Position numbers and translations under genes: made by a program. This document shows, in pieces, positions 11,661 through 35,031 of a stretch of 35,031 nt of DNA. The first letter of the stretch is position 1. Each line of letters starts with the position of its first letter. The stretch is from Nitrospirota bacterium (lineage in GTDB: Bacteria; Nitrospirota; Nitrospiria; SBBL01; JAADHI01): the NCBI GenBank assembly GCA_029261165.1, contig JAJDBV010000036.1:1-35031 (forward strand), read 5' to 3'. Below the pieces are notes generated by a model. That model saw only the letters and a list, made by a program, of their open reading frames with translations, ran no database searches and was not told the DNA's origin.

Positions 11661-11730
11661 CAACTCCTCCTATTTTTGGGATATAAAACACTATGGTGAA
11701 CATGTAAGATCCCATTCTACAGATTAAATG

Positions 11731-11769
11731 AAAAAGGGCGGACGCAGTTTAATGCATCCACCCTTTCTC
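11731..11769 (-). terminator. Intrinsic terminator of the cytochrome operon
   Basis: On the minus strand a 13-bp stem (AAAGGGTGGATGC / GCGTCCGCCCTTT, two G-U pairs) with an 8-nt loop is followed by TTTTTC. Stem arms are at 11733-11745 and 11754-11766. It starts 26 bp past the last cytochrome gene and separates it from metK. Confidence 0.85.
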
Positions 11770-11794
11770 ATAAGCTTCATATTCCGATGATGAA

Positions 11795-13573
11795 CTATTT
11801 CAACGGTAAGTCCTCATCTTCTTTGTAATTCACGGCCGCCCTGCGTGCAATGACCAGGCAACCAAAAATTGCGCCGAACACGACGACTGGAACGACATAG
11901 ACTGAGCCTGGAATCGGCGGTTCCATCATCAGGTAGTAGAATGTCGAAAGGGCCATCCTTCCGCCAACTTCACCCGCATCCCCATCCCATGCGAAGAAGG
12001 TAATCGGTATATTCTTTCCGTTGACCAATTGGGCTGATTTTTCCTTGTCATCGGTCAGAAGCGAACGCTTCAGGATCACCTGCCATCGGCCATCGGTCCA
12101 CTTTGCATAGGCGACCTTGACGTTGTTGCTTCCTTCTCGAAGCACCACCTTGTCGATTCCATTCCCTTCATACTCCTTCACGGTACCATCTGACTCCCAT
12201 TTCCAGAGATCAACGCCTCGCTTTTCGTCACCATGCACAAAATACCATTTTGTCGGTGGCGGGATCTCTTCCCACTTCTGTCCGAACTGGATCGCAATCG
12301 CATCGTTATAGACGCCTTTTGGCAGCGGGTTGACGTTCTTTAGGGGGCCGCGCGCGCCATCTGTCTCGTGGGTAAATTGCGTAGTTGCGATTGCAGGGAA
12401 GGCCTCTGACTGCAAGCGATTCATATCATATCTCGCTTCTCCGTCCGGGTCGAGATGGCTTTCAGTGCGATCATCCCACTCAAAAAGGAGGGCAACTTCC
12501 TTCTCATCGTAGAGAGAACGCACGCGAATATCATCAACGGTCCGAATGAAATGCCGAGGCGGCTGAATAATCTGGCTCGCCAATCCGACATATTGGGGTT
12601 CCAAAATATTCCACTTCTCATCGTTCGGATCAGAGGGCGTTCCGCCTTCCTCCAAGAATTTGGATTTAATAACAAATCCGATTGAGGGTTTTCCTGAGTT
12701 CGGATCGAGCGGATATTTGACCTCGGTGAGCGAAATCACAAAGTTGGCCACATGCCACCGTTCTTCTTCCGTCAATTCATCTTTAAAAGAGGGCATCGGC
12801 GTACCGTTCAGGCCGGTTGAGACCTCACGAAAGATATTCCGAGGATTGTAGGGGTCTCTCCGGTTTCCACGAAGATTCCATGGCTTCTGGAGATTCGCCG
12901 GAAAGATCGGGAAACCCCAATCGCCCCGCTGTGACAAGTTGCCGTTCCCCCGTCCTTCAACACCGTGGCATTCAACACACTTTGCCTTGTTCATAAAGAT
13001 GTCACGTCCCAACTCTATACTTTCCGGTGAAGAAGGGATCTGATTTCCGTAACTGATCACGGTGATCTCTTCATCCGGATCGTCAAATTCACGATCCTTG
13101 ACCAGCTCCTTTTTAATGAATGCAATGGCCTGTTTCATCTCTTCGTCTGAAAGGATCCCCGCCCAAGGGGGCATCACAGATCCCTGAAGACCATGTCGAA
13201 CGGTATTGAGAAGATCTTCATCGGTCGGGAGCTCACCGCTTCCTGTGTGACGAATTTTAAAGGTCCCGGCATTAAAGTTTCTTGGCTTCGTTACGAGCCG
13301 AATCGCAGAAGGCCCATCCCCTGCTCCATCCGGACCATGGCACCAGACACACTTCTTGAAATAAACAGCCTTTCCCTTCTCGATGGTCCCGCCATCCTCT
13401 TTGGCCGGCTTGTAAGGGCCGGGAGCCGGTATAACCTCCGCCGCTCCGATCTTGAATGTCTGGGCCTCTGCTAACCCGCCAAAACCCATGATCAGGCTCA
13501 GGAGGGCAAACATGGAGACGCCGATAAGAGAGTACTTCTTTCTTGCCCTGCTCTCTTCGATCTTTCGTATCAT
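11795..13573 (-). CDS. Diheme cytochrome c with ethylbenzene-dehydrogenase-gamma-like heme domain
   Basis: The protein has 592 residues. A leader (about 15-37) is followed by two c-type heme domains: CVWCH (75-79) with likely axial Met in VMPPW, and CVECH (199-203) with GTPMPSF. The second half resembles the DMSO-reductase type II gamma-subunit / EB_dh heme-b domain, for example DDIRVRSLYDEKEVALLFEW and VAYAKWTDGRWQVILKRSL. A C-terminal helix (VYVVPVVVFGAIFGCLVIA) anchors it. Gamma-like proteins normally partner a molybdopterin enzyme (ethylbenzene dehydrogenase, nitrite oxidoreductase), but no alpha or beta subunit is in this window. Here it is the last gene of the CydA-like operon, so it more likely moves electrons to or from that complex. 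ATG at 13573 follows GAGGGGG. Confidence 0.88.
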   Translation of the reverse strand: MIRKIEESRARKKYSLIGVSMFALLSLIMGFGGLAEAQTFKIGAAEVIPAPGPYKPAKEDGGTIEKGKAVYFKKCVWCHGPDGAGDGPSAIRLVTKPRNFNAGTFKIRHTGSGELPTDEDLLNTVRHGLQGSVMPPWAGILSDEEMKQAIAFIKKELVKDREFDDPDEEITVISYGNQIPSSPESIELGRDIFMNKAKCVECHGVEGRGNGNLSQRGDWGFPIFPANLQKPWNLRGNRRDPYNPRNIFREVSTGLNGTPMPSFKDELTEEERWHVANFVISLTEVKYPLDPNSGKPSIGFVIKSKFLEEGGTPSDPNDEKWNILEPQYVGLASQIIQPPRHFIRTVDDIRVRSLYDEKEVALLFEWDDRTESHLDPDGEARYDMNRLQSEAFPAIATTQFTHETDGARGPLKNVNPLPKGVYNDAIAIQFGQKWEEIPPPTKWYFVHGDEKRGVDLWKWESDGTVKEYEGNGIDKVVLREGSNNVKVAYAKWTDGRWQVILKRSLLTDDKEKSAQLVNGKNIPITFFAWDGDAGEVGGRMALSTFYYLMMEPPIPGSVYVVPVVVFGAIFGCLVIARRAAVNYKEDEDLPLK

Positions 13574-13624
13574 TTTTATAAATCCCCCTCTTAAATTATC
13601 AATTTCAACCACCGGGACAGATTC

Positions 13625-14632
13625 TTAACCCCATGTTCTCGGGAAGAATCCAGTATGCCAGTACTCAAACACGATGACCTTCCAGATTTCGTTCGTGGTC
13701 AGATGCTTTTCCCAGGGCGGCATGGCCGATGCCCAGGGGAATGCCTCACGAGAAAGATCGGGTCCACCTTTAGCGACGCGCCAGAACACGAAGGTCTCCT
13801 GGAGCTGGGCGATCGTTCCCGGATCTGCAAAGTTTGCCGGAATCGGGTTGAAGGCAAATGAGAACGGCCCCCTGCCGTCGAGGTTATCTCCATGGCAGAA
13901 GAAGCAACCCGCCGTTCCAAAAAAGACGACGCCCCCTTCACGCACTTCCTGGAGAAACCTCGGGACATCCCCTGTCCAGGAATTTCCGCCGAAGTATTTA
14001 CTCTCATCCCCAACCTTCAAGTACTCCCCATCATCACCAACCCGAAAAGGATTTTCAGCCGTCTGAAGGGTGACCAGTTTCTTATGAACATTGATGCTCG
14101 CCGGAGGGGCGGGATGAACCGTCCGCAGTTCAATCGGCTCACCAAACTTCGGCAGCATTGTATTGTAGGTTTGGGCGGCAATCAATCCGGGCAAAATCAG
14201 AAATGTTGCATACCGACTCATTTTTGCCTTTGTGTGGTCATCCCGGAGCATCGATGCAATCGGTCCAGAGAAAGCCTCCCAGGATTCGGTCGTGATCGTG
14301 CAGTAACAGAGGATCACCAGCGTGCAGACCCCCATGTACATCGCGAGAAGCGAAAAAGGGATGGGGGGTTGGAGGATCACCCTAAAATTGATGTAAGCAA
14401 GGATATAGAGAATGGGGGCCTGCAGGAGCTTCGGAATCGTTATCCCCATCTTGTGCTTGACGATCCATCCTAAAAAGATTGCCCCAAGGACCAGCCCAAC
14501 CTCAATCACCAGGGCGAAGGTTCCCGCGTCGATGAATCCGGTCGCGCCCCCTCCCGCCCAAGAGACAACAGGCAAGGCCAGGAGAAGGAATAGAACCTGT
14601 GTTAGCATTGTCTTCTTTCTAATATTGAACAT
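13625..14632 (-). CDS. Membrane-anchored monoheme cytochrome c
   Basis: The protein has 335 residues. After a leader, about four hydrophobic spans lie between residues 35 and 155 (LVIEVGLVLGAIFLGWIV, LLAMYMGVCTLVILCYC, YATFLILPGLIAAQTY). The C-terminal periplasmic part has one c-type heme site, CFFCH (243-247), with the downstream ASAMPPWEKHLT giving the likely methionine ligand. It probably passes electrons between the diheme proteins and the CydA-like subunit. ATG at 14632 is preferred because GGGAGG lies about 10 nt upstream, while the earlier ATG at 14659 has no ribosome site. It precedes the EB_dh-like cytochrome by 51 bp. Confidence 0.85.
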   Translation of the reverse strand: MFNIRKKTMLTQVLFLLLALPVVSWAGGGATGFIDAGTFALVIEVGLVLGAIFLGWIVKHKMGITIPKLLQAPILYILAYINFRVILQPPIPFSLLAMYMGVCTLVILCYCTITTESWEAFSGPIASMLRDDHTKAKMSRYATFLILPGLIAAQTYNTMLPKFGEPIELRTVHPAPPASINVHKKLVTLQTAENPFRVGDDGEYLKVGDESKYFGGNSWTGDVPRFLQEVREGGVVFFGTAGCFFCHGDNLDGRGPFSFAFNPIPANFADPGTIAQLQETFVFWRVAKGGPDLSREAFPWASAMPPWEKHLTTNEIWKVIVFEYWHTGFFPRTWG

Positions 14633-14689
14633 AATTGTTCTGCCTCCCTTTTTCAACATTCAATTTGATTAAAACAGCGGTATTTATTT

Positions 14690-14717
14690 AACTAAAAAGT
14701 CTTCCCTTGAAGGAAGA
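14690..14717 (-). terminator. Weak terminator-like hairpin inside the cytochrome operon
   Basis: On the minus strand TCTTCC-TTCAAG-GGAAGA (14700-14717) is followed by CTTTTTAG. The stem is only 6 bp. It lies between the diheme and monoheme cytochrome genes and could lower expression of the last two genes or mark an RNA processing site. Confidence 0.4.
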
Positions 14718-14768
14718 GGAGCCATTATTTCCACCCCTCCTCCTTCACCCTTCTCCAGGGATTTTCTA

Positions 14769-15974
14769 CTAGGACAAGTCCCCACTTTTTACTTCGCCCA
14801 GTGAAGCTTCCGGAGGAGGCAGGATCGATCCCTCTTTTTCATTTGGCAGACGATCCATTCCTTCGGCAACGGCCGAAGCGACATCCTGGTTCAATAGATA
14901 ATCAACCATTACATCAAGTCCGGAGACAGTGAACTTATGCCTGAAGTCCTTGAGCATGTCATCCGCGAATCCCGGAACGATGAAGGCGCCCGGGTCCATG
15001 ATTGATTCAATCACATACTCCCTTGGCGTCGTCGCATGGGCTTTCCCCTCTTTCACCGCCTTCTTATACTCCGGTGACTTGATGCGATTCGGGGCATTGG
15101 TTTTCTCAATCAACAATGGCCCAATCATGCCGGTCTTCGCGATGGCCACCCCCGGAATCTTATGGCAGGCAAAACAGGTCATCTCCTTTACAATCTCATC
15201 AACCGTCATGCTACCGAGCGCAACCGGCGGGCCTTTCGGCTTCTCTTCTTCTTCCTCCCCTTCGCCTTCAGCCGGGGCCGCCAATTCTTTTCCGAAATAA
15301 GACTCCCAGGAGTCCTTGGCGGTCCACTTGCTTTCATCCCCGTCCCGCAACTGAAGGAAGGAAACCACTGCGACGATCTCGGTGTCGGCCAACTCGATCG
15401 GCGGCTTATTGATGATGGGCATCGGACTGACGGTATCGTTTGTCCCTTTCAGGCCAAAACCCACGACCACGAAGCAGTTGGGACAGTACTCCGACTCGAT
15501 CAGATACTCGCCGCCCGTTGTGGCATGAGGAACAATGCCGGAATTTTTCTCTCCATTGGCGTGAAGCTTCTTAAACTCTTCATAACGCCCCTTCACCCTC
15601 TCGTGTGAACGCGCCTCCTCAGAGATCTTCAGCAAGGGCGGCTCCATTTCAGGGAGGGCGAGGAGGTTCGGGCAACGGTCGGCCTTCTGCTCCAGGAAGA
15701 AACGGTGACAGAGTGGACACTGCCCTTTCCCGATCGGACCTTCCCCTTTTGCCAAGACACCCAGAGGGTCGTTCGACCCAAAGATGATCTTTTCACCCAT
15801 TGTCGACAACTGATCCGGCGTAACCTCATCAAGGTTGATCGCCTCCGCCGCCTCCGGTGCATCTCCCCGAATTTGCGGCAGCCAGTTCGTATATCCTGCA
15901 AAGGCCCCGAGAATAAACATGTACCAGAGCGCAACTTTTATTACGATTGTCCCTGCACCTTTTTTCTTAGCCAT
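14769..15974 (-). CDS. Membrane-anchored diheme cytochrome c
   Basis: The protein has 401 residues. An N-terminal span (about 10-30, VIKVALWYMFILGAFAGY) anchors two cytochrome c domains: CPLCH (86-90) and CFACH (267-271), separated by an acidic linker (EGEGEEEEEKPKG, about 236-248). Met185 in SPMP is the likely axial ligand of the first heme. A further CPNC pair (164-167) lacks the heme histidine and sits where the second domain reads MDPGAF, so it is not a heme site but could be a disulfide or metal site. The second domain lacks an obvious matching methionine. It lies between the CydA-like gene (67 bp) and the monoheme cytochrome. I know no firm family name for it. Confidence 0.86.
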   Translation of the reverse strand: MAKKKGAGTIVIKVALWYMFILGAFAGYTNWLPQIRGDAPEAAEAINLDEVTPDQLSTMGEKIIFGSNDPLGVLAKGEGPIGKGQCPLCHRFFLEQKADRCPNLLALPEMEPPLLKISEEARSHERVKGRYEEFKKLHANGEKNSGIVPHATTGGEYLIESEYCPNCFVVVGFGLKGTNDTVSPMPIINKPPIELADTEIVAVVSFLQLRDGDESKWTAKDSWESYFGKELAAPAEGEGEEEEEKPKGPPVALGSMTVDEIVKEMTCFACHKIPGVAIAKTGMIGPLLIEKTNAPNRIKSPEYKKAVKEGKAHATTPREYVIESIMDPGAFIVPGFADDMLKDFRHKFTVSGLDVMVDYLLNQDVASAVAEGMDRLPNEKEGSILPPPEASLGEVKSGDLS

Positions 15975-16041
15975 ACCCTTCTTTTACCCCCTCTTAAAGT
16001 TGGGGGCCGACTGAATCGGCCCCCGCAAACGTAAACCCAGC

Positions 16042-17976
16042 TTAATGACTTGCCGCCGGAACAGCTTCTCCAGCATCGGCGGTCACCTTCGACGGCGCTT
16101 TTTTCGCGGCGAGAGAGCTGAGCCAGAAGACGAAGAGCAACATTGTCCAGAAGAGCAGTACATTCATCGAATTAATATTCCCGGCATAGCCAAGCGGGTT
16201 CGTAAATGCCCAGGGCGAATTGTCCCGCATAATCTCGTTGACATGCCAATGGAGGCGAACAGAAGAACGAAGGTAGCCCATCACGGCCATCGTCCAGGTA
16301 AAGGCGACCGCCAACAGGAACAGCGCGTAGGCCCCACGGACCGACATCTGCCCCCAACGGATGGGTGCGACCTCTTTCGAACCCTTGAGCATCTTCGTAT
16401 TCACTGCGACCCCGACAAAGAGTGTGGTCAGCGTAGAAACGACCTGAGGCACAGAGAGCCCGATCCGGACATTCGCCGGGATGAAGTAACCGTAGATCCC
16501 TAGAAAGAGGATATTGACCCACGCCATGGCAAAGAGGAGGATCAAGAAACAATTCCCCTTCCAGGCCCAGGGTACCGTGATAATTCTGTTTGCACGCTGA
16601 TAAAGACAGAAGGTCAACACTGTCGTCGTAATCATTGTGTTGATCGCCGTATTTTTCGCTGACATCACCCCATAGTTTCCGACCACAGGATGCTGCTGAC
16701 CCCCCATTGCCTTTAACTCGGCCGGTGTCATCACCAGGGTATGCGGTGTCAACCAGGAGATGGTCGAAATCACAAGGATCGCAAGCAGAAACTTAAAGGC
16801 CGGATAGTAACGCTCCGCACCCGGCATCCGCCCCATTGCCTGAAAGAGATAGTAATTGACCGTGATAAAGAGTGTCGCGATCATGGTCGCCTGCATAATG
16901 AACACCCAGGCGAGCAGTCCGCCCATCAAGGTAATTCCCATCTGCTGGCGATAAGCGTAAATCTCTCTCATCAGCCAGTAGCCGGCAAAAGGAAGCGGGA
17001 TCAGATTGAGAATCCCCATGAACATTGCGATGTAGCTCATCCAGTCGTAGTGGGCCTTCTCCTCTAAGGTTTTGGATGACAGGAAGCGGAAGGCGGCATA
17101 GGCACCGACCACACCGCCCCCGAAAGCTGCATTTCCAAGAATCCTGTGAATGACGATGGGCACCATCAACGGTGTATGGATCACCTTCCAGATATCGCCC
17201 AGGAATCGTCCCGATTCGTCAACACCCGCAGGTGACATCATGAATCCGATCCAAGTATTCGCCATGACCATCAGAACAATGCCGATCGCATTGAGAATGC
17301 AACTGATGCCCAGATGGGTCCACTTCCAGTTGCCGTTCCCGTCGTTCATCGCATCCCAGCCATAGTAGTAGACATAAAGCACGCCGCTCTCCAATATGAA
17401 CAAGAGTGCATAGATATGCATGACCGGCTTAAAGATGCTGGCCAGATAACCGAAGAAGCCTGGATAGAGGGCCAGGAAGGTAAAGATGAGAATCCCCCCG
17501 AGGATGGCCGTCACCGAATAGGCGGTTAAACTGATCTTCATCATTTCGTGGGCCAGATCATCAAACTTCTTCCCTACCTTTCGATCTTTCTGCGTCGCCC
17601 CGATTAATTCCATCACGAAGACAAACATCGGAACGGCCAGAACAAAACTCCCGAAATAAAGATGCTGCTGATTGGAAACCCAGAGGAGCGTCCGGCTCTG
17701 GTAATCGCCGTAAGAACCATAGCTGTCCGGGTAGACCATCTCCGGGGCGGGAGGACCGGAAACGATTCCGAACTCGTTCACCCCGCCATATTGCTTGTCT
17801 TTTCCCTTTGATCCTATTTCTCCTTCTGCAGGCTCCGCTGATTCCTCAGCCGCCGCCTCTTCCTTACCCTGGGCGGATACATCCATCTGGGCAAATGGAA
17901 GAAGGAGAAGCATCCCGATCATACTGAGCAGGATCAAAGCCCCTATCTTTTTTTTCTTATTGTTAACACTAAACAT
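16042..17976 (-). CDS. CydA-like ('bd-like') polytopic membrane oxidoreductase subunit
   Basis: The protein has 644 residues: a leader, an acidic low-complexity stretch, then about 13 membrane spans. Landmarks of cytochrome bd subunit I are visible. SNQQHLYFGSF puts His105 where CydA has the heme b595 ligand. FILESGVLYVYYYGWD parallels the FFFES..FGWD segment with its proton-path glutamate (Glu196). MANTWIGFMMSPAG matches the ANxWMxxPVG region. IHRILGNAAFGGG supplies a histidine (His277) at the CydA His186 position. GRQPW and a Q-loop were not found, and it is longer than CydA, so it belongs to the divergent bd-like group reported in Nitrospira-type organisms. Whether it reduces O2 or acts as a quinone-linked electron-transfer unit is unknown. 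GGGAGG lies 7-8 nt before ATG 17976. Confidence 0.82.
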   Translation of the reverse strand: MFSVNNKKKKIGALILLSMIGMLLLLPFAQMDVSAQGKEEAAAEESAEPAEGEIGSKGKDKQYGGVNEFGIVSGPPAPEMVYPDSYGSYGDYQSRTLLWVSNQQHLYFGSFVLAVPMFVFVMELIGATQKDRKVGKKFDDLAHEMMKISLTAYSVTAILGGILIFTFLALYPGFFGYLASIFKPVMHIYALLFILESGVLYVYYYGWDAMNDGNGNWKWTHLGISCILNAIGIVLMVMANTWIGFMMSPAGVDESGRFLGDIWKVIHTPLMVPIVIHRILGNAAFGGGVVGAYAAFRFLSSKTLEEKAHYDWMSYIAMFMGILNLIPLPFAGYWLMREIYAYRQQMGITLMGGLLAWVFIMQATMIATLFITVNYYLFQAMGRMPGAERYYPAFKFLLAILVISTISWLTPHTLVMTPAELKAMGGQQHPVVGNYGVMSAKNTAINTMITTTVLTFCLYQRANRIITVPWAWKGNCFLILLFAMAWVNILFLGIYGYFIPANVRIGLSVPQVVSTLTTLFVGVAVNTKMLKGSKEVAPIRWGQMSVRGAYALFLLAVAFTWTMAVMGYLRSSVRLHWHVNEIMRDNSPWAFTNPLGYAGNINSMNVLLFWTMLLFVFWLSSLAAKKAPSKVTADAGEAVPAASH

Positions 17977-18109
17977 CTCTCTACCTCCCAAAAAGGGTTA
18001 TTTTAACTCTTGAAATTAAAATGCGGCATATCCCGGTACATTTAACTTTTCCACTTAATTCATACTCTAAACTTTATCGAGACCAAAAGTGATTCCAAAT
18101 CAAATATTT

Positions 18110-18262
18110 TTATTTATACGGATAGGGCAGATTCTGAATCGGCACCATCAAAACCCAGTTTAAGAAGATGAGATAGTAAAAGGCGCAGCCCACCGCAGCC
18201 ATGATAAAGAACCCTATTTTTGCTCCCATTCCGATTTGCTCATCTTGACCTTTTTCTGACAT
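18110..18262 (-). CDS. Tiny single-span membrane protein 2
   Basis: A 50-residue open frame: a charged N-terminus (MSEKGQDEQIGMGAK), one hydrophobic span (IGFFIMAAVGCAFYYLIFL), then NWVLMVPIQNLPYPYK. AAAGGG lies about 7 nt upstream. It is second in the operon, between a related 45-residue protein and the CydA-like gene. Small single-span subunits such as CydX stabilise cytochrome bd, so a similar role is plausible by position and size only. The spacing to the CydA-like gene is 133 bp with no other feature seen. Confidence 0.72.
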   Translation of the reverse strand: MSEKGQDEQIGMGAKIGFFIMAAVGCAFYYLIFLNWVLMVPIQNLPYPYK

Positions 18263-18339
18263 CTCGCATCCCTTTCACTTAGTGATAATTATGTTAGACC
18301 TTATCGCTTATGTTTCAATCCGCCACCCGTCGCAGCTTA

Positions 18340-18477
18340 TTACCCGTGAAGTCCAGGCGGAACACTCCCAATCATCAGAAAATAGTTTATCCAGATGAAG
18401 AAGGCCAGACAAACATAAAAGACTCTCTTCCCAATCTTATTGTCGACTTCTTCTCCCTCAACAGCCTCTTTCGCCAT
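18340..18477 (-). CDS. Tiny single-span membrane protein 1
   Basis: A 45-residue open frame with GAGGGGG upstream of ATG 18477. It has an acidic N-terminus (MAKEAVEGEEVDNK), then IGKRVFYVCLAFFIWINYFL and a short tail MIGSVPPGLHG. It shares with the next gene the pattern KIG - hydrophobic span - N..(F/V)LM.(G/V)..P, so the two look like diverged copies. It is the first gene after the strong promoter at 18531-18559, with about 47 nt of leader. Likely a small subunit or assembly factor of the respiratory complex. Confidence 0.72.
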   Translation of the reverse strand: MAKEAVEGEEVDNKIGKRVFYVCLAFFIWINYFLMIGSVPPGLHG

Positions 18478-18530: not shown

Positions 18531-18559
18531 AATATATCTCAAAAAATAAAGCTTGTCAA
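18531..18559 (-). promoter_or_regulatory. Near-consensus promoter of the cytochrome operon
   Basis: On the minus strand TTGACA (18554-18559), 17-bp spacer, TATATT (18531-18536). Transcription would start near 18524. A TTTAC...GTAAA dyad lies in the leader just after the start point and could be an operator, which is a weak guess. Confidence 0.8.
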
Positions 18560-18839: not shown

Positions 18840-19688
18840 CTACCCTCCTGCTACCTGGCTGGTTGACCGCGCGCACCTGAATCCCATTGTTGTATCCCGA
18901 TAAAAAGGGAGCATCTTCATCCGCGCTGTCGTCCTTCCTGAAAGATGCGAATCGTTCCAGGACGCTCCTCTCATCACCTTCATCTTCATCTCATCACGCT
19001 TTGGCCCTTTCGGGTTCCGCGAGGGTGCGTGACGAAAATAGCCTTCCACATACCAATCCTGTACCCACTCCCGCGCGTTGCCCGCCATGTCGTAAAGACC
19101 GTAGGGGCTTTTGTCTTTCTCATAGGAACCGACAATCGCCGTCAGACTTCCCGCGTCTTCGTCACCGACAAAGTTTGCCGCCGCCGGTTGAAATTCTCCC
19201 GGCCAGGGCCAGACCGCCCCTTCGACGCCCCGCGCCGCTTTCTCCCACTCCGCCTCCGTCGGCAGACGCATTCCGACCCACTGGCAATAGTCATAGGCAT
19301 CTGACCAACCGATATAAACTGCAGGCTGGTTTGGGTGGTTCAGCAGTTCAATGTCTGTCACATAGCGCGAGAGGGGTGACCGGTGATTTGTCATTTTTAC
19401 AAACTTGGCATAATAGAATTGTGTGATCTCGTACTGGTTGATCTCAAACGCGTCCAGATAGACGGTCCGCTGCGGCTTTTCATCCCACGCCCCCTCATCA
19501 CTCCCCATAATAAAATCTCCTGCAGGGATTAAAATCATCGGGTTCTCCATCGGGGACTCCGAGCCGTCGATCCTCGCCAGAGGAACCGTGTCTTTGTCGC
19601 CTCTAAAACTCGACATCAGGCCGAAGAACCCGACAGCCGAAAGAACGAGTATGAACCAGAGCCACGCTTTTACAAATTGTTTAACCAT
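18840..19688 (-). CDS. FGE/SUMF1-fold protein, membrane-anchored, without FGE cysteines
   Basis: The protein has 282 residues. An N-terminal span (WLWFILVLSAVGFFGLM) is followed by a full SUMF1-type domain: MILIPAGDFIMGSDEGAWDE, YEITQFYYAKFV, MRLPTEAEWEKAARG, YGLYDMAGNAREWVQDWY and MRGASWNDSH...MGFRCAR. True formylglycine-generating enzymes bind copper through two cysteines in the GGSW.C....C segment. Here those positions read D and S/G, so sulfatase activation is unlikely, and no sulfatase gene is nearby. The domain is also used as a non-enzymatic or differently enzymatic scaffold. A second copy lies at 20816-21634. The ATG at 19688 follows AGGGATAG. Confidence 0.88.
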   Translation of the reverse strand: MVKQFVKAWLWFILVLSAVGFFGLMSSFRGDKDTVPLARIDGSESPMENPMILIPAGDFIMGSDEGAWDEKPQRTVYLDAFEINQYEITQFYYAKFVKMTNHRSPLSRYVTDIELLNHPNQPAVYIGWSDAYDYCQWVGMRLPTEAEWEKAARGVEGAVWPWPGEFQPAAANFVGDEDAGSLTAIVGSYEKDKSPYGLYDMAGNAREWVQDWYVEGYFRHAPSRNPKGPKRDEMKMKVMRGASWNDSHLSGRTTARMKMLPFYRDTTMGFRCARSTSQVAGG

Positions 19689-31138: not shown

Positions 31139-32590
31139 TTACAGAAAAATCTTTACTGAAGAGATCGCACCCCGAATGATCGGTTCGGGATAAAGGCCGA
31201 GAAACAAGGTGACAAAGGCCATGATCGAAAGGGCCACTTTCAGGGCAGGTGAAAATGAAAGAGGCATGGCATCCAGGGGTTCATCCATATACATCACCTT
31301 GACGATGTTGAAATAGTAATAAAGGGAAATGGCGCTATTGAGAATGGCAATAATCGCCAACCAATAGAAACCGCCCTGTATTGCCGCATTGAACAAGTAG
31401 AGTTTTCCGACAAAACCTGCGGTCGGCGGAATTCCGATCAGGGAGAGGGCAAAGAGAATAAAGGTCGCCGCCACGAGCGGGTGGGTCCGGGCCAAGCCCC
31501 TAAGGTCGCTGATTTGATCCCCCCGCACACCCTTTCTGCAAATGAGAATCACCAGGGTAAAAGCACCCAGGGTCATGAAGACGTACCCGACGAGATAGAC
31601 CAGTATGGCAGTCAATCCGACGTTATTCCCCGCGATCAAACCGATCATAAGGTAACCTGCATGTGCGATCGAGGAATAGGCAAGGAGCCTTTTAATATTG
31701 GTCTGAACCATCGCGACCACATTTCCAAGGGTCATCGTGAGAACGGAAACCAACCAGAGAATCTGCCACCAGGTATCATGGCTTCCCTCCAGGCCCGTGA
31801 TAAAAACACGCAGCATCACAGAAAATGCGGCCGCCTTCGACCCTGCAGAAAGGAAGGCCGTGATCGGTGTCGGCGCACCTTCATAAACATCCGGTGCCCA
31901 CATATGAAAGGGAACTGCGGCAATCTTGAATCCAAAACCAGTGACCATCAGGATGACGGCGATAATTAAGGTCGGAGAGGAAGAGAGGTCCTGACCTGCA
32001 AGCTGTTCATGAATCCCCGTTAGATTTGTGGTCCCCGTTAAACCATATAAAAACGCGATTCCGTACAAAATAACTCCGGAGGCAAAGACTCCGGTCAAAA
32101 AATATTTAATTCCGGCCTCAATCGACCTCGGATCTTTTCTCATAAATGCCGTCAAGACATAGAGAGACATCGACATCAGTTCGAGTGAGAGGTAAAAAGA
32201 GAGGAGGTCTGTGGCCGAAGGGAGAAACATCATCCCAATCGTCGCAAAGAGGATCAGGCCGTAATACTCTCCCAAATTAATGTGCTGAATCTCTATATAC
32301 CGAAAGGACATCATGATGATCAGTATAGAAATCGAAAGAAATACCATCTTAAAAAAGATGGCATAAAAATCGATCGCGATCATCCCGTTGAAGGTTGAAA
32401 TTTCCTTTCCCCACAAGAAAACAAGTGAGAAGCCGGAAAGAAGCAATCCCCCAATCGAAAAATAGCCCAATGATTCTTTTTTCTCAAGAGGGACAAAGGG
32501 TTCTGCAACGAAAAGGGCACAGGCCACCAGGGCCAGGATCATTTCAGGGAGAATCGCAATCAGTTGAATGTTTGGAAGTGCCGTCTCCAT
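31139..32590 (-). CDS. nuoN: NADH-quinone oxidoreductase subunit N
   Basis: Antiporter-like proton-pumping subunit of complex I. The protein has 483 residues and about 14 spans. Conserved charges are visible: Glu in FYLSLELMSMSLYVLTAF, Lys in GFGFKIAAVPFHMWAPDVYE, and the discontinuous-helix segment RLLAYSSIAHAGYLMIGL. The ATG at 32590 directly follows the nuoM stop codon, so the genes are tightly coupled. It is the last nuo gene here. I saw no convincing terminator in the 150 bp before the dprA promoter region. Confidence 0.96.
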   Translation of the reverse strand: METALPNIQLIAILPEMILALVACALFVAEPFVPLEKKESLGYFSIGGLLLSGFSLVFLWGKEISTFNGMIAIDFYAIFFKMVFLSISILIIMMSFRYIEIQHINLGEYYGLILFATIGMMFLPSATDLLSFYLSLELMSMSLYVLTAFMRKDPRSIEAGIKYFLTGVFASGVILYGIAFLYGLTGTTNLTGIHEQLAGQDLSSSPTLIIAVILMVTGFGFKIAAVPFHMWAPDVYEGAPTPITAFLSAGSKAAAFSVMLRVFITGLEGSHDTWWQILWLVSVLTMTLGNVVAMVQTNIKRLLAYSSIAHAGYLMIGLIAGNNVGLTAILVYLVGYVFMTLGAFTLVILICRKGVRGDQISDLRGLARTHPLVAATFILFALSLIGIPPTAGFVGKLYLFNAAIQGGFYWLAIIAILNSAISLYYYFNIVKVMYMDEPLDAMPLSFSPALKVALSIMAFVTLFLGLYPEPIIRGAISSVKIFL

Positions 32591-34249
32591 CTATTCCTTT
32601 TCCCCACTGGAGGCACTCAATTCAAGATCCTCTATCCGCTCACCCGGATCACCGCGCAATGCAAGGTCTACAGGGCGTTCAGGGAGGAGGTTCTCCCGGC
32701 CCACCTTCTTCACATCTTGACCCGTCCCGGTTCTTTTCGCCGAAGCGGTGTTGAGCCTTTGGACGATCTTGTCCACAGCAGGTTCCATCATCTGGATAAA
32801 GGGCTTCGGATAAAGTCCAATCCAGAACATGAAGACGACCAAGGGGACCATGTAAGAGATCTCTCGGGTGTTCATATCAGATAGCTTTTGATTCTCCGGG
32901 TTATCCAGCGCCCCGAACATCATCCGCTGGAAGAGCCAGAGCATGTACGCGGCCCCCAGGATGATCCCGATCACGGCAATCCCCGCATAAATTTTGTTTG
33001 CTTCAAAGGCCCCGACCAGGATTAAAAATTCTCCCACGAATCCATTGAGACCGGGAAGTCCCATGGACGAAAACATCGTCACGGCAAAAAAGGCGGCAAA
33101 AATGGGCATCCGGTAAGACAAGCCTCCAAAATCCGCGATCAAACGCGTATGTCGGCGTTCGTAAATCATCCCGACAATCAAAAAGAGTGCTCCGGTGGAG
33201 ACGCCATGATTGATCATCTGGAGAATGCCTCCCGTAATCCCATGCCTGTTCAGGGCAAACAAGCCCAGCATGACAAAGCCAAGATGGCTGACGGAAGAAT
33301 AAGCCACCAGGCGCTTCACATCTTTTTGCGCCAATGCAACCAGGGCACCGTAAACGATCCCGACCAGCGCCAATCCGGAGATCATTGGAACAAAGTAGCG
33401 GCTGGCATCAGGGAAGATCGGGAGACAAAAACGGACAAAGCCATAGGTCCCCATTTTCAGCAAGACCCCCGCCAACAAGACGCTTCCGGCAGTCGGGGCA
33501 TCCGTATGCGCATCAGGGAGCCAGGTATGGAAAGGAAACATCGGAACCTTGATGGCAAAACCGAGAAAGAAGGCAAGGAAGAGCCAGTATTGAAAAGGAT
33601 GGAGCGGAAGGTTCAGCTTTTGGAGCTCTAGAATGCTAAAAGTGAGCTGTCCCGTCCCATATTCCGGGTTCCCATTGAGAAAATAGATGGCCAGAATCCC
33701 CAGGAGCATGAACAGACTGCCAAAGAGGGTATAAAGAAAAAACTTGATGCAGGAATAGAGACGCCGCCCCCCACCCCAGATTCCGATCATAAAGTACATC
33801 GGAACCAGCATGATTTCCCAGAAGATATAGAAGAGGAAAAAATCGAGGGACATGAAGACGCCGAGCATCCCGGTTTCCAGGAAGAGGATTGCGATATAAT
33901 ATTCCTTCACCCGCTCCGTAATCGCTGTAAAAGAGCTGACAATCGAGATGGCGGTGAGGATCGTTGTCATCACGATCAGTAAAAGGCTGATTCCGTCAAT
34001 TCCAAATACATACTCAACGCCCAGGCTTGGAATCCAGGAGGCTTGTTCCACAAATTGCATATCTGCTTTGGTATTGTCAAAACCCGGTATGAGAAGAAAT
34101 GAAACCACCATGGTGACAAGGGAAATCCCCAAGGCCGTTTGCATGATCGCCTTGTGGTCTTCCTTCTTCATGAACGCAAGAATAAAGCAGCCGATGAGGG
34201 GGATGTAGGCAATGAGGGAGAGTAGGGGAAAAGAATACGTACTTATCAT
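32591..34249 (-). CDS. nuoM: NADH-quinone oxidoreductase subunit M
   Basis: Antiporter-like complex I subunit of 552 residues. Marks: FYIFWEIMLVPMYFMIGIWG with the key Glu, GFAIKVPMFPFHTWLPDAHT with the key Lys, RLVAYSSVSHLGFVMLGLFA and GLPGLNGFVGEFLIL. After the last span the protein carries an unusual polar tail of about 55 residues (IVQRLNTASAKRTGTGQDVK onward) with many charges. AGGAGG lies 5 nt before ATG 34249. It is 31 bp downstream of nuoL. Confidence 0.96.
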   Translation of the reverse strand: MISTYSFPLLSLIAYIPLIGCFILAFMKKEDHKAIMQTALGISLVTMVVSFLLIPGFDNTKADMQFVEQASWIPSLGVEYVFGIDGISLLLIVMTTILTAISIVSSFTAITERVKEYYIAILFLETGMLGVFMSLDFFLFYIFWEIMLVPMYFMIGIWGGGRRLYSCIKFFLYTLFGSLFMLLGILAIYFLNGNPEYGTGQLTFSILELQKLNLPLHPFQYWLFLAFFLGFAIKVPMFPFHTWLPDAHTDAPTAGSVLLAGVLLKMGTYGFVRFCLPIFPDASRYFVPMISGLALVGIVYGALVALAQKDVKRLVAYSSVSHLGFVMLGLFALNRHGITGGILQMINHGVSTGALFLIVGMIYERRHTRLIADFGGLSYRMPIFAAFFAVTMFSSMGLPGLNGFVGEFLILVGAFEANKIYAGIAVIGIILGAAYMLWLFQRMMFGALDNPENQKLSDMNTREISYMVPLVVFMFWIGLYPKPFIQMMEPAVDKIVQRLNTASAKRTGTGQDVKKVGRENLLPERPVDLALRGDPGERIEDLELSASSGEKE

Positions 34250-34280
34250 GAAACCTCCTAAGGAACCGGTTACGCAGTCA

Positions 34281-35031
34281 CTACCATATCCAGATGAAAA
34301 CAATCGATAGAAAAACAATACCGACGATCATGGCCAGCATATAATTCTGGATGGCCCCCGTCTGCAATTTACGGAGTCGCCGGGCACTCCCACCCAAGAC
34401 GGTTGAGACACTGTTCACTGCTCCATCGACGACATGCATATCAAATATTTCTGAGACCTTGCTCTCCAGAAGTGTCGCCCATCCCGAGGCGTTCACCAGC
34501 CCGTCAAAAACCCAGGTGTCCACCTTCCAGGCAAATCTGGAGAGCTTCTTTACCGGTGCTATCAAGCCAAATTTATACACCTCTGTAATAAACTCCTCAT
34601 AGCGTGCGAGGGGTTTATGGGCCAGCCACATAAAGCCCGGGACGCCTTTCCGGTAGCCGACATCAACATCGATGGTGGTGCCGTCCTCCGGGTGCAGTTT
34701 CCAAAGGATAAGGATGAAGGCCAGGGCGGTAAAGAAGAGGCCCTGCAGGGATCCCGCAATATGCTCCAAGGTGTAAGGATGATAGTCCACGGGGTGCGGC
34801 AGGAGTCCGTAGAGTAAGCCCGGAAAACTCCCGGTGATAAAACAGAGTGCGGCGACCACGCCCATCGCCCAGAGCATGTGTCGGGGAGGATCCTGGGCCT
34901 TGAGTCCTTTGTCCGGCGCCAGGAAGCCAAAGTAGCAGGGCTTAAGGGTGGTCGAGAGAAAGGTGCCGGCGGCCACCATGGTCAGGAGCAGGGTGACGAT
35001 GGGCCGATGTTCTGCAATCGCGGCAGAGACG
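34281..35031 (-). CDS. nuoL: NADH-quinone oxidoreductase subunit L (C-terminal part)
   Basis: The frame is open from the right edge (first whole codon ends at 35030) to a stop at 34281, giving about 249 C-terminal residues. Hydrophobic spans MVAAGTFLSTTLKPCYFGFL, MLWAMGVVAALCFITGSFPG and LQGLFFTALAFILILWKL are followed by a long amphipathic region (ARYEEFITEVYKFGLIAPVK) and VVDGAVNSVSTVLGGSARRL-RKLQTGAIQNY, typical of the lateral helix and last span of NuoL. Gene order nuoL-nuoM-nuoN is standard. The conserved Glu/Lys region lies outside the window, so a duplicated M-type subunit cannot be fully excluded. Confidence 0.88.
   Translation of the reverse strand, partial: VSAAIAEHRPIVTLLLTMVAAGTFLSTTLKPCYFGFLAPDKGLKAQDPPRHMLWAMGVVAALCFITGSFPGLLYGLLPHPVDYHPYTLEHIAGSLQGLFFTALAFILILWKLHPEDGTTIDVDVGYRKGVPGFMWLAHKPLARYEEFITEVYKFGLIAPVKKLSRFAWKVDTWVFDGLVNASGWATLLESKVSEIFDMHVVDGAVNSVSTVLGGSARRLRKLQTGAIQNYMLAMIVGIVFLSIVFIWIW

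Follow-up and report, generated by a model that had tools for sequence, protein, structure and literature searches.

What can a CydA-like protein do when it is encoded among c-type cytochromes and without CydB? This question is raised by a minus-strand unit running from 18559 to 11728 in a contig of a Nitrospirota bacterium (JAJDBV010000036.1 of assembly GCA_029261165.1; the window is the whole 35,031-nucleotide stretch analysed), in which a promoter-like site is followed by two tiny open reading frames (ORFs), a CydA-like ORF, three cytochromes and a hairpin. Our analysis suggests that this operon probably encodes an OR-N-type, cytochrome-c-fed, bd-type O2 reductase and not a quinol-fed one. 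We place about even confidence in a further claim, that the two tiny proteins, s47 and s50, are conserved in Nitrospirota, Nitrospinota and Proteobacteria and serve as constitutive, unnamed single-transmembrane (single-TM) subunits of a bd-family oxidase that has six proteins, is fed by cytochrome c and would pass electrons from its c-hemes directly to the CydB-less CydA. The parts that a sequence-only reading of the window had listed are all present on the minus strand:

18559..18531, minus strand: sigma-70-like promoter, TTGACA-17 nt-TATATT, with 11 of 12 consensus bases (a match to the consensus alone, not proof of function)
18340..18477, minus strand: s47, a 45-aa single-TM protein and the operon's first gene, a hidden Markov model (HMM) family; the listed ORF begins at TTG 18483
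18110..18262, minus strand: s50, a 50-aa single-TM protein, an HMM family with the C-terminal motif [DN]xxLM..Q[GN]L
16042..17991, minus strand: CydA-like ORF of 649 aa, OR-N-like (PF01654, E 7.5e-19), probable ATG at 17976
14769..15974, minus strand: B, a membrane-anchored diheme cytochrome c of 401 aa with two CxxCH motifs
13625..14659, minus strand: C, 344 aa, with a polytopic N-terminus and one C-terminal heme-c domain (Cytochrom_C; one CxxCH)
11795..13612, minus strand: D, alt-NxrC-like, 605 aa (EB_dh, E 1.8e-14; two CxxCH), probable ATG at 13573
11728..11771, minus strand: terminator-like hairpin with 19-nt arms (11728-11746/11753-11771), a 6-nt loop and then a U-rich tract (-31.5 kcal/mol; z = -5.39)
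18840..19688, minus strand: FGE-sulfatase-domain protein (PF03781, E 2.3e-52), upstream of the operon and outside the unit

The operon thus holds five CxxCH sites (two in B, one in C and two in D) and, as had been noted from the sequence, no CydB, no COX1 or other heme-copper subunit and no molybdopterin (Mo) subunit. A T-run hairpin inside the operon, between B and C (14700-14717, minus strand), scores barely above chance in the scan and is perhaps an attenuator.

Conservation of the gene order

The cydA-B-C-D order is complete in 66 of the 89 distinct loci bearing an operon-type cydA, with a contig end interrupting 17 of the remainder, and these loci span at least four phyla (Nitrospirota, Nitrospinota, "Deltaproteobacteria", Alpha-, Beta- and Gammaproteobacteria, and Gemmatimonadales). 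The operon is one conserved unit, its gene order kept beyond chance, and the search for the same order that had been proposed reached Nitrospirota and other lineages alike; plasmid records gave weak partial matches only. By the sequence-only reading's own standard, homologous operons that carried CydB or a heme-copper subunit would have spoken against it. No homologue of E. coli CydB and, with a trimmed query, none of the COX1 core was detected in any homologous locus; the full-length COX1 query had matched D proteins via their fused c-type heme domains, and the trimmed core gave nothing.

Natural fusions bear on how the subunits are arranged. In seven proteins of the TO_2 type known from Manganitrophaceae, both host ones included, the CydA C-terminus carries the first heme domain of B (E 1e-26 to 1e-32), and C and D form a single protein in at least ten Gammaproteobacteria. 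Although indirect, these fusions are strong evidence for an association of CydA with B and of C with D. The sequence-only reading had named a failure of the proteins to associate as its other point of refutation, and on that point the fusions favour association.

The two small membrane proteins

Each of s47 and s50 has one hydrophobic helix, and no Pfam or NCBIfam model covers either. HMMs built on 11 seeds each and run against 16,665 small ORFs (E < 1e-3) recovered 77 s50-like and 63 s47-like ORFs, 73 and 61 of which lie directly upstream of a same-strand cydA; the seeds' own location near cydA is no evidence here, since the seeds were taken from those same loci. Of the 82 operons whose upstream sequence extends to 500 bp or more, 72 carry s50 and 61 carry s47, and locus L170, outside the training set, carries both. 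Chance small ORFs were rejected as an explanation, because nearly all HMM matches fall directly upstream of cydA and L170 carries both out of sample. The gammaproteobacterial outliers still belong to the same cluster but stand at its 3' end (s47 and s50 at 13945-14289 of L123; s50 at 13819-13959 of L130), so that linkage to the cluster persists without a fixed position. Median dN/dS within the order is 0.25 for s50 and 0.35 for s47, rough values given that dS is near saturation. Neither gene was seen beside the bd-like_1, bd-like_2 or TO_2 CydA clades.

We suggest that s47 and s50 would act as small structural subunits in a role comparable to CydX/CydH or CcoQ. The available portions of the published accounts of the Nitrospira, Nitrospina and anammox cluster do not mention the tiny genes, and a literature search that did not cover the key paper, Murali 2021, found no mention of them, so the two are likely, though not proven, to be newly recognised.

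Electron entry and the acceptor

The CydA-like protein matches PF01654 in its N-terminal half only. An AlphaFold2 model built on a 50-sequence alignment (predicted local distance difference test, pLDDT, 82.9; predicted template modelling score, pTM, 0.82) shows about 14 TM helices, and in Foldseek the ten PDB entries that match it best are CydA subunits of solved bd oxidases. With canonical cytochrome bd (CydAB-X, E. coli 6rko/6rx4) the operon shares the CydA fold, CydX-like small single-TM peptides and the equivalents of E. coli CydA H19, H186 and E107, each retained by no fewer than 107 of 108 homologues. Unlike it, the operon has c-type heme subunits, no CydB and no Q-loop residues (K252 and E257 in E. 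coli numbering are lost in all homologues aligned), and a canonical CydAB quinol oxidase was rejected on the absence of CydB and of K252/E257. Its CydA also has extra histidines, H417, H434 and H583, which are invariant or nearly so, would lie on the periplasmic side by helix counting, and are candidates for a cofactor site or a c-heme contact. On the CydA tree the protein separates from the NIDE0901/bd-like_2-like clade; homology and fold, the absence of CydB, the loss of quinol residues and the linked c-type cytochromes place it as a probable OR-N-like member of the cytochrome bd superfamily. Its nearest named relatives are Nitrospirota metagenome-assembled genomes at about 70-82% identity, several labelled Ca. 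Manganitrophaceae or Ca. Troglogloeales.

Each of the five CxxCH motifs is paired with a candidate distal Met that is at least 93% conserved (Met185 and Met340 in B, Met313 in C), which suggests high-potential c-hemes. B has a sequence match to the diheme protein of PDB 7zs0-7zs2, which we take to be Kuenenia Kustd1711. That B-like protein was measured at about +350 mV (PMC11791136), which by analogy also suggests a high potential. In D, a signal/TM segment is followed by two heme-c domains, an EB_dh (heme b) domain and a C-terminal TM helix; its heme-c part resembles PDB 6h5l_B (E 1.8e-47) and its C-terminal part EbdC (PDB 2ivf_C). High-potential electrons from periplasmic donors would enter via D, through its periplasmic c and b hemes, and via the membrane-anchored c-hemes that C and B carry. 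In this non-nitrifying host lineage the donor would probably be an Fe/Mn-type electron uptake chain. B, seated on CydA, would hand the electrons to the predicted b-type hemes of CydA, where O2 would be reduced. Entry from periplasmic cytochromes, already proposed from the sequence, gains backing from the lost quinol residues, the five His/Met-type c-hemes and the CydA-B and C-D fusions.

The EB_dh gamma-type heme-b domain of D, which fits the descriptions of alt_NxrC, could suit an operon that anchors a type II enzyme of the dimethyl sulfoxide (DMSO) reductase family, for instance NXR, in the membrane and accepts its electrons, D standing in as an alternative gamma subunit. We consider this role very improbable. 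An NXR-like alpha subunit is absent from the host genome, where the best TIGR03479 match, to a frame of 756 aa, reaches 55 bits, while frames of 1150 aa in Nitrospira-like relatives score about 190-215 bits; an NXR anchor was accordingly rejected for the host. The same operon is also found in numerous lineages for which nitrite oxidation is not known, and together these findings count against a general anchoring role.

The host genome (2.9 Mb, 95% complete) carries four CydA-like genes: the operon copy, a copy on contig C10 and longer copies on contigs C62 (locus L036) and C31 (locus L037). The C10 protein, CydA', has 642 aa and is about 45% identical to the operon CydA. In five close relatives its orthologue stands divergently upstream of the operon with an FGE-sulfatase-domain gene between them; the host keeps that gene (18840-19688) by the operon, while its cydA' sits on C10. 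An FGE-sulfatase-domain gene neighbours the operon in most Nitrospirota loci, at times in two copies. The operon had been called self-contained, which holds in that it is one unit but is too strong, because the likely partner CydA' is encoded elsewhere. CydA' may take over the place of CydB by pairing with the operon CydA as a CydAA' heterodimer. It could also be that the operon is half an enzyme, whose functional oxidase is the heterodimer with the C10 protein and whose own CydA is the non-catalytic half. The divergent cydA' of the five family members and the OR-N1/OR-N2 heterodimers proposed in two papers (PMC12342949, PMC10839748) fit this arrangement, which we nevertheless regard as improbable: the operon CydA keeps the conserved His and Glu ligands, and two genomes of another family, G021 (locus L054) and G026 (locus L170), both 95-96% complete, carry cydA-B-C-D with the operon CydA as their only CydA-like gene. 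Neither cydA' nor CydB nor a convincing COX1 was found in these two, so a second CydA is not always needed and the heterodimer is not universal.

Other oxidases in the host were likewise sought. No COX1 and no CydB was found in the host genome or its seven family members (eight genomes searched), all of which have CydA-like proteins, and a heme-copper oxidase was rejected since COX1 appeared neither in the genome nor in homologous loci; within this family the bd-like proteins are therefore the sole O2-reductase candidates found. The C-terminal domain of Fe/Mn superoxide dismutase was not found in G000 (the host), G001, G003, G021, G026 or G030 among seven genomes tried, and was present in G002, of the host's own family; as it is absent from most of the seven, this aerobic marker was dropped as uninformative. 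The C62 and C31 cydA genes adjoin antiporter-like membrane genes, and their clusters resemble TO_2 as described in a study of Manganitrophaceae (PMC9040806). At the window edge, two adjoining Proton_antipo_M (NuoM/Mrp-type) genes of 483 and 575 aa (31139-34318, minus strand) possibly belong, by analogy with Nitrospira and Manganitrophaceae, to a complex I that carries one more pumping subunit than usual.

Several points weigh against an O2 reductase. The E. coli E99 equivalent is Tyr in operon-type CydA, the heme b595 ligand E445 lacks conservation and the residue equivalent to M393 varies, the last two statements being tentative because the C-terminal half of CydA aligns poorly with canonical CydA and is uncertain at M393; the O2 site may thus differ from that of a canonical bd oxidase. 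The two TO_2-type CydA clusters of the host could be its real oxidases, and no biochemistry of any operon-type member was found in the literature. Nitrospira bd-like_3 has been assigned to reverse electron flow and the oxidase role to its paralogue bd-like_2 (PMC6606698), and homologues occur in anaerobic anammox bacteria (PMC3578206). In the main rival account, electrons of high-potential periplasmic cytochromes are pushed uphill to quinone for reverse electron transport, a role already suggested for bd-like_3/alt_NxrC_2 of Nitrospira and for the cluster of anammox bacteria. It draws on the homologues standing alongside NXR in anaerobic anammox organisms, whose acceptor is not O2 (PMC3578206), on the role proposed for the Nitrospira copy (PMC6606698) and on the unconserved E99 and E445. 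We hold it to be unlikely, since the known quinol-binding residues are missing from all homologues, the operon recurs in Proteobacteria and Gemmatimonadota, and in G021 and G026 it appears to be the only recognisable O2-reductase candidate.

Published relatives and biological meaning

The order cydA, diheme c, monoheme c, alt-NxrC has already been published as bd-like_3/alt_NxrC_2 of Nitrospira (PMC6606698) and for Nitrospina and anammox bacteria (PMC3578206). The operon matches the make-up of bd-like_3/alt_NxrC_2 (a bd-like CydA, two membrane c-type cytochromes and an alt_NxrC with a TM helix and two heme-c sites), the gene order is identical in Nitrospirota relatives (loci L049-L054), and about 14 TM helices and the lack of a quinol site are shared with the Nitrospira moscoviensis cluster and its Nitrospina/anammox homologues as described in those sources. 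Unlike Nitrospira, the host has no NXR, and the duplicated CydA-like gene (compare bd-like_4 of Nitrospira) lies on a separate contig. TO_1 of Ca. Manganitrophaceae, which shares the host lineage (order Ca. Troglogloeales) and is described as a bd-like protein with a periplasmic cytochrome b, is probably the same cluster, likened here by description only; it was proposed to reduce O2 in Mn(II) lithotrophy (PMC9040806).

The OR-N family of the cytochrome bd superfamily is credited to Murali et al. 2021 by two OR-N papers (PMC12342949, PMC10839748). As portrayed there, the family shares with the operon a CydA without CydB, the missing quinol site, a distribution in Nitrospirota and Nitrospinota and a proposed oxidation of cytochrome c, and the oxidase proposed there is a cytochrome c-oxidising CydAA' pairing OR-N1 with OR-N2. 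The earlier description of the cluster leaves its role open between NXR anchor, reverse electron flow and oxidase, and the same debate, cytochrome c-fed or reverse, runs through the literature (PMC12342949, PMC10839748, PMC6606698, PMC3578206). To call the operon the window's best candidate for an incompletely described system, as had been done, therefore goes too far, as the literature on Nitrospira, Nitrospina/anammox, Manganitrophaceae TO_1 and OR-N already covers the cluster (PMC6606698, PMC3578206, PMC9040806, PMC12342949, PMC10839748). The operon seems to belong to a known, biochemically uncharacterised kind, with its apparent novelty in the conserved pair of small subunits, in how widely the operon is spread and in what the fusions show.

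OR-N bd-like proteins have been proposed as the chief terminal oxidases in Nitrospira, Nitrospina and manganese oxidisers, and no report of a purified OR-N member was found in the literature. G021 and G026 lend themselves to the question of what the operon achieves by itself. For this family the operon supplies a testable subunit list, CydA, B, C and D with two small peptides, whose gene order holds from one phylum to another, and the natural fusions hint at which parts of the complex touch. Because the s47 and s50 genes are missing from family libraries they are easily overlooked in annotation, and their omission could doom heterologous expression or structural work on the enzyme.

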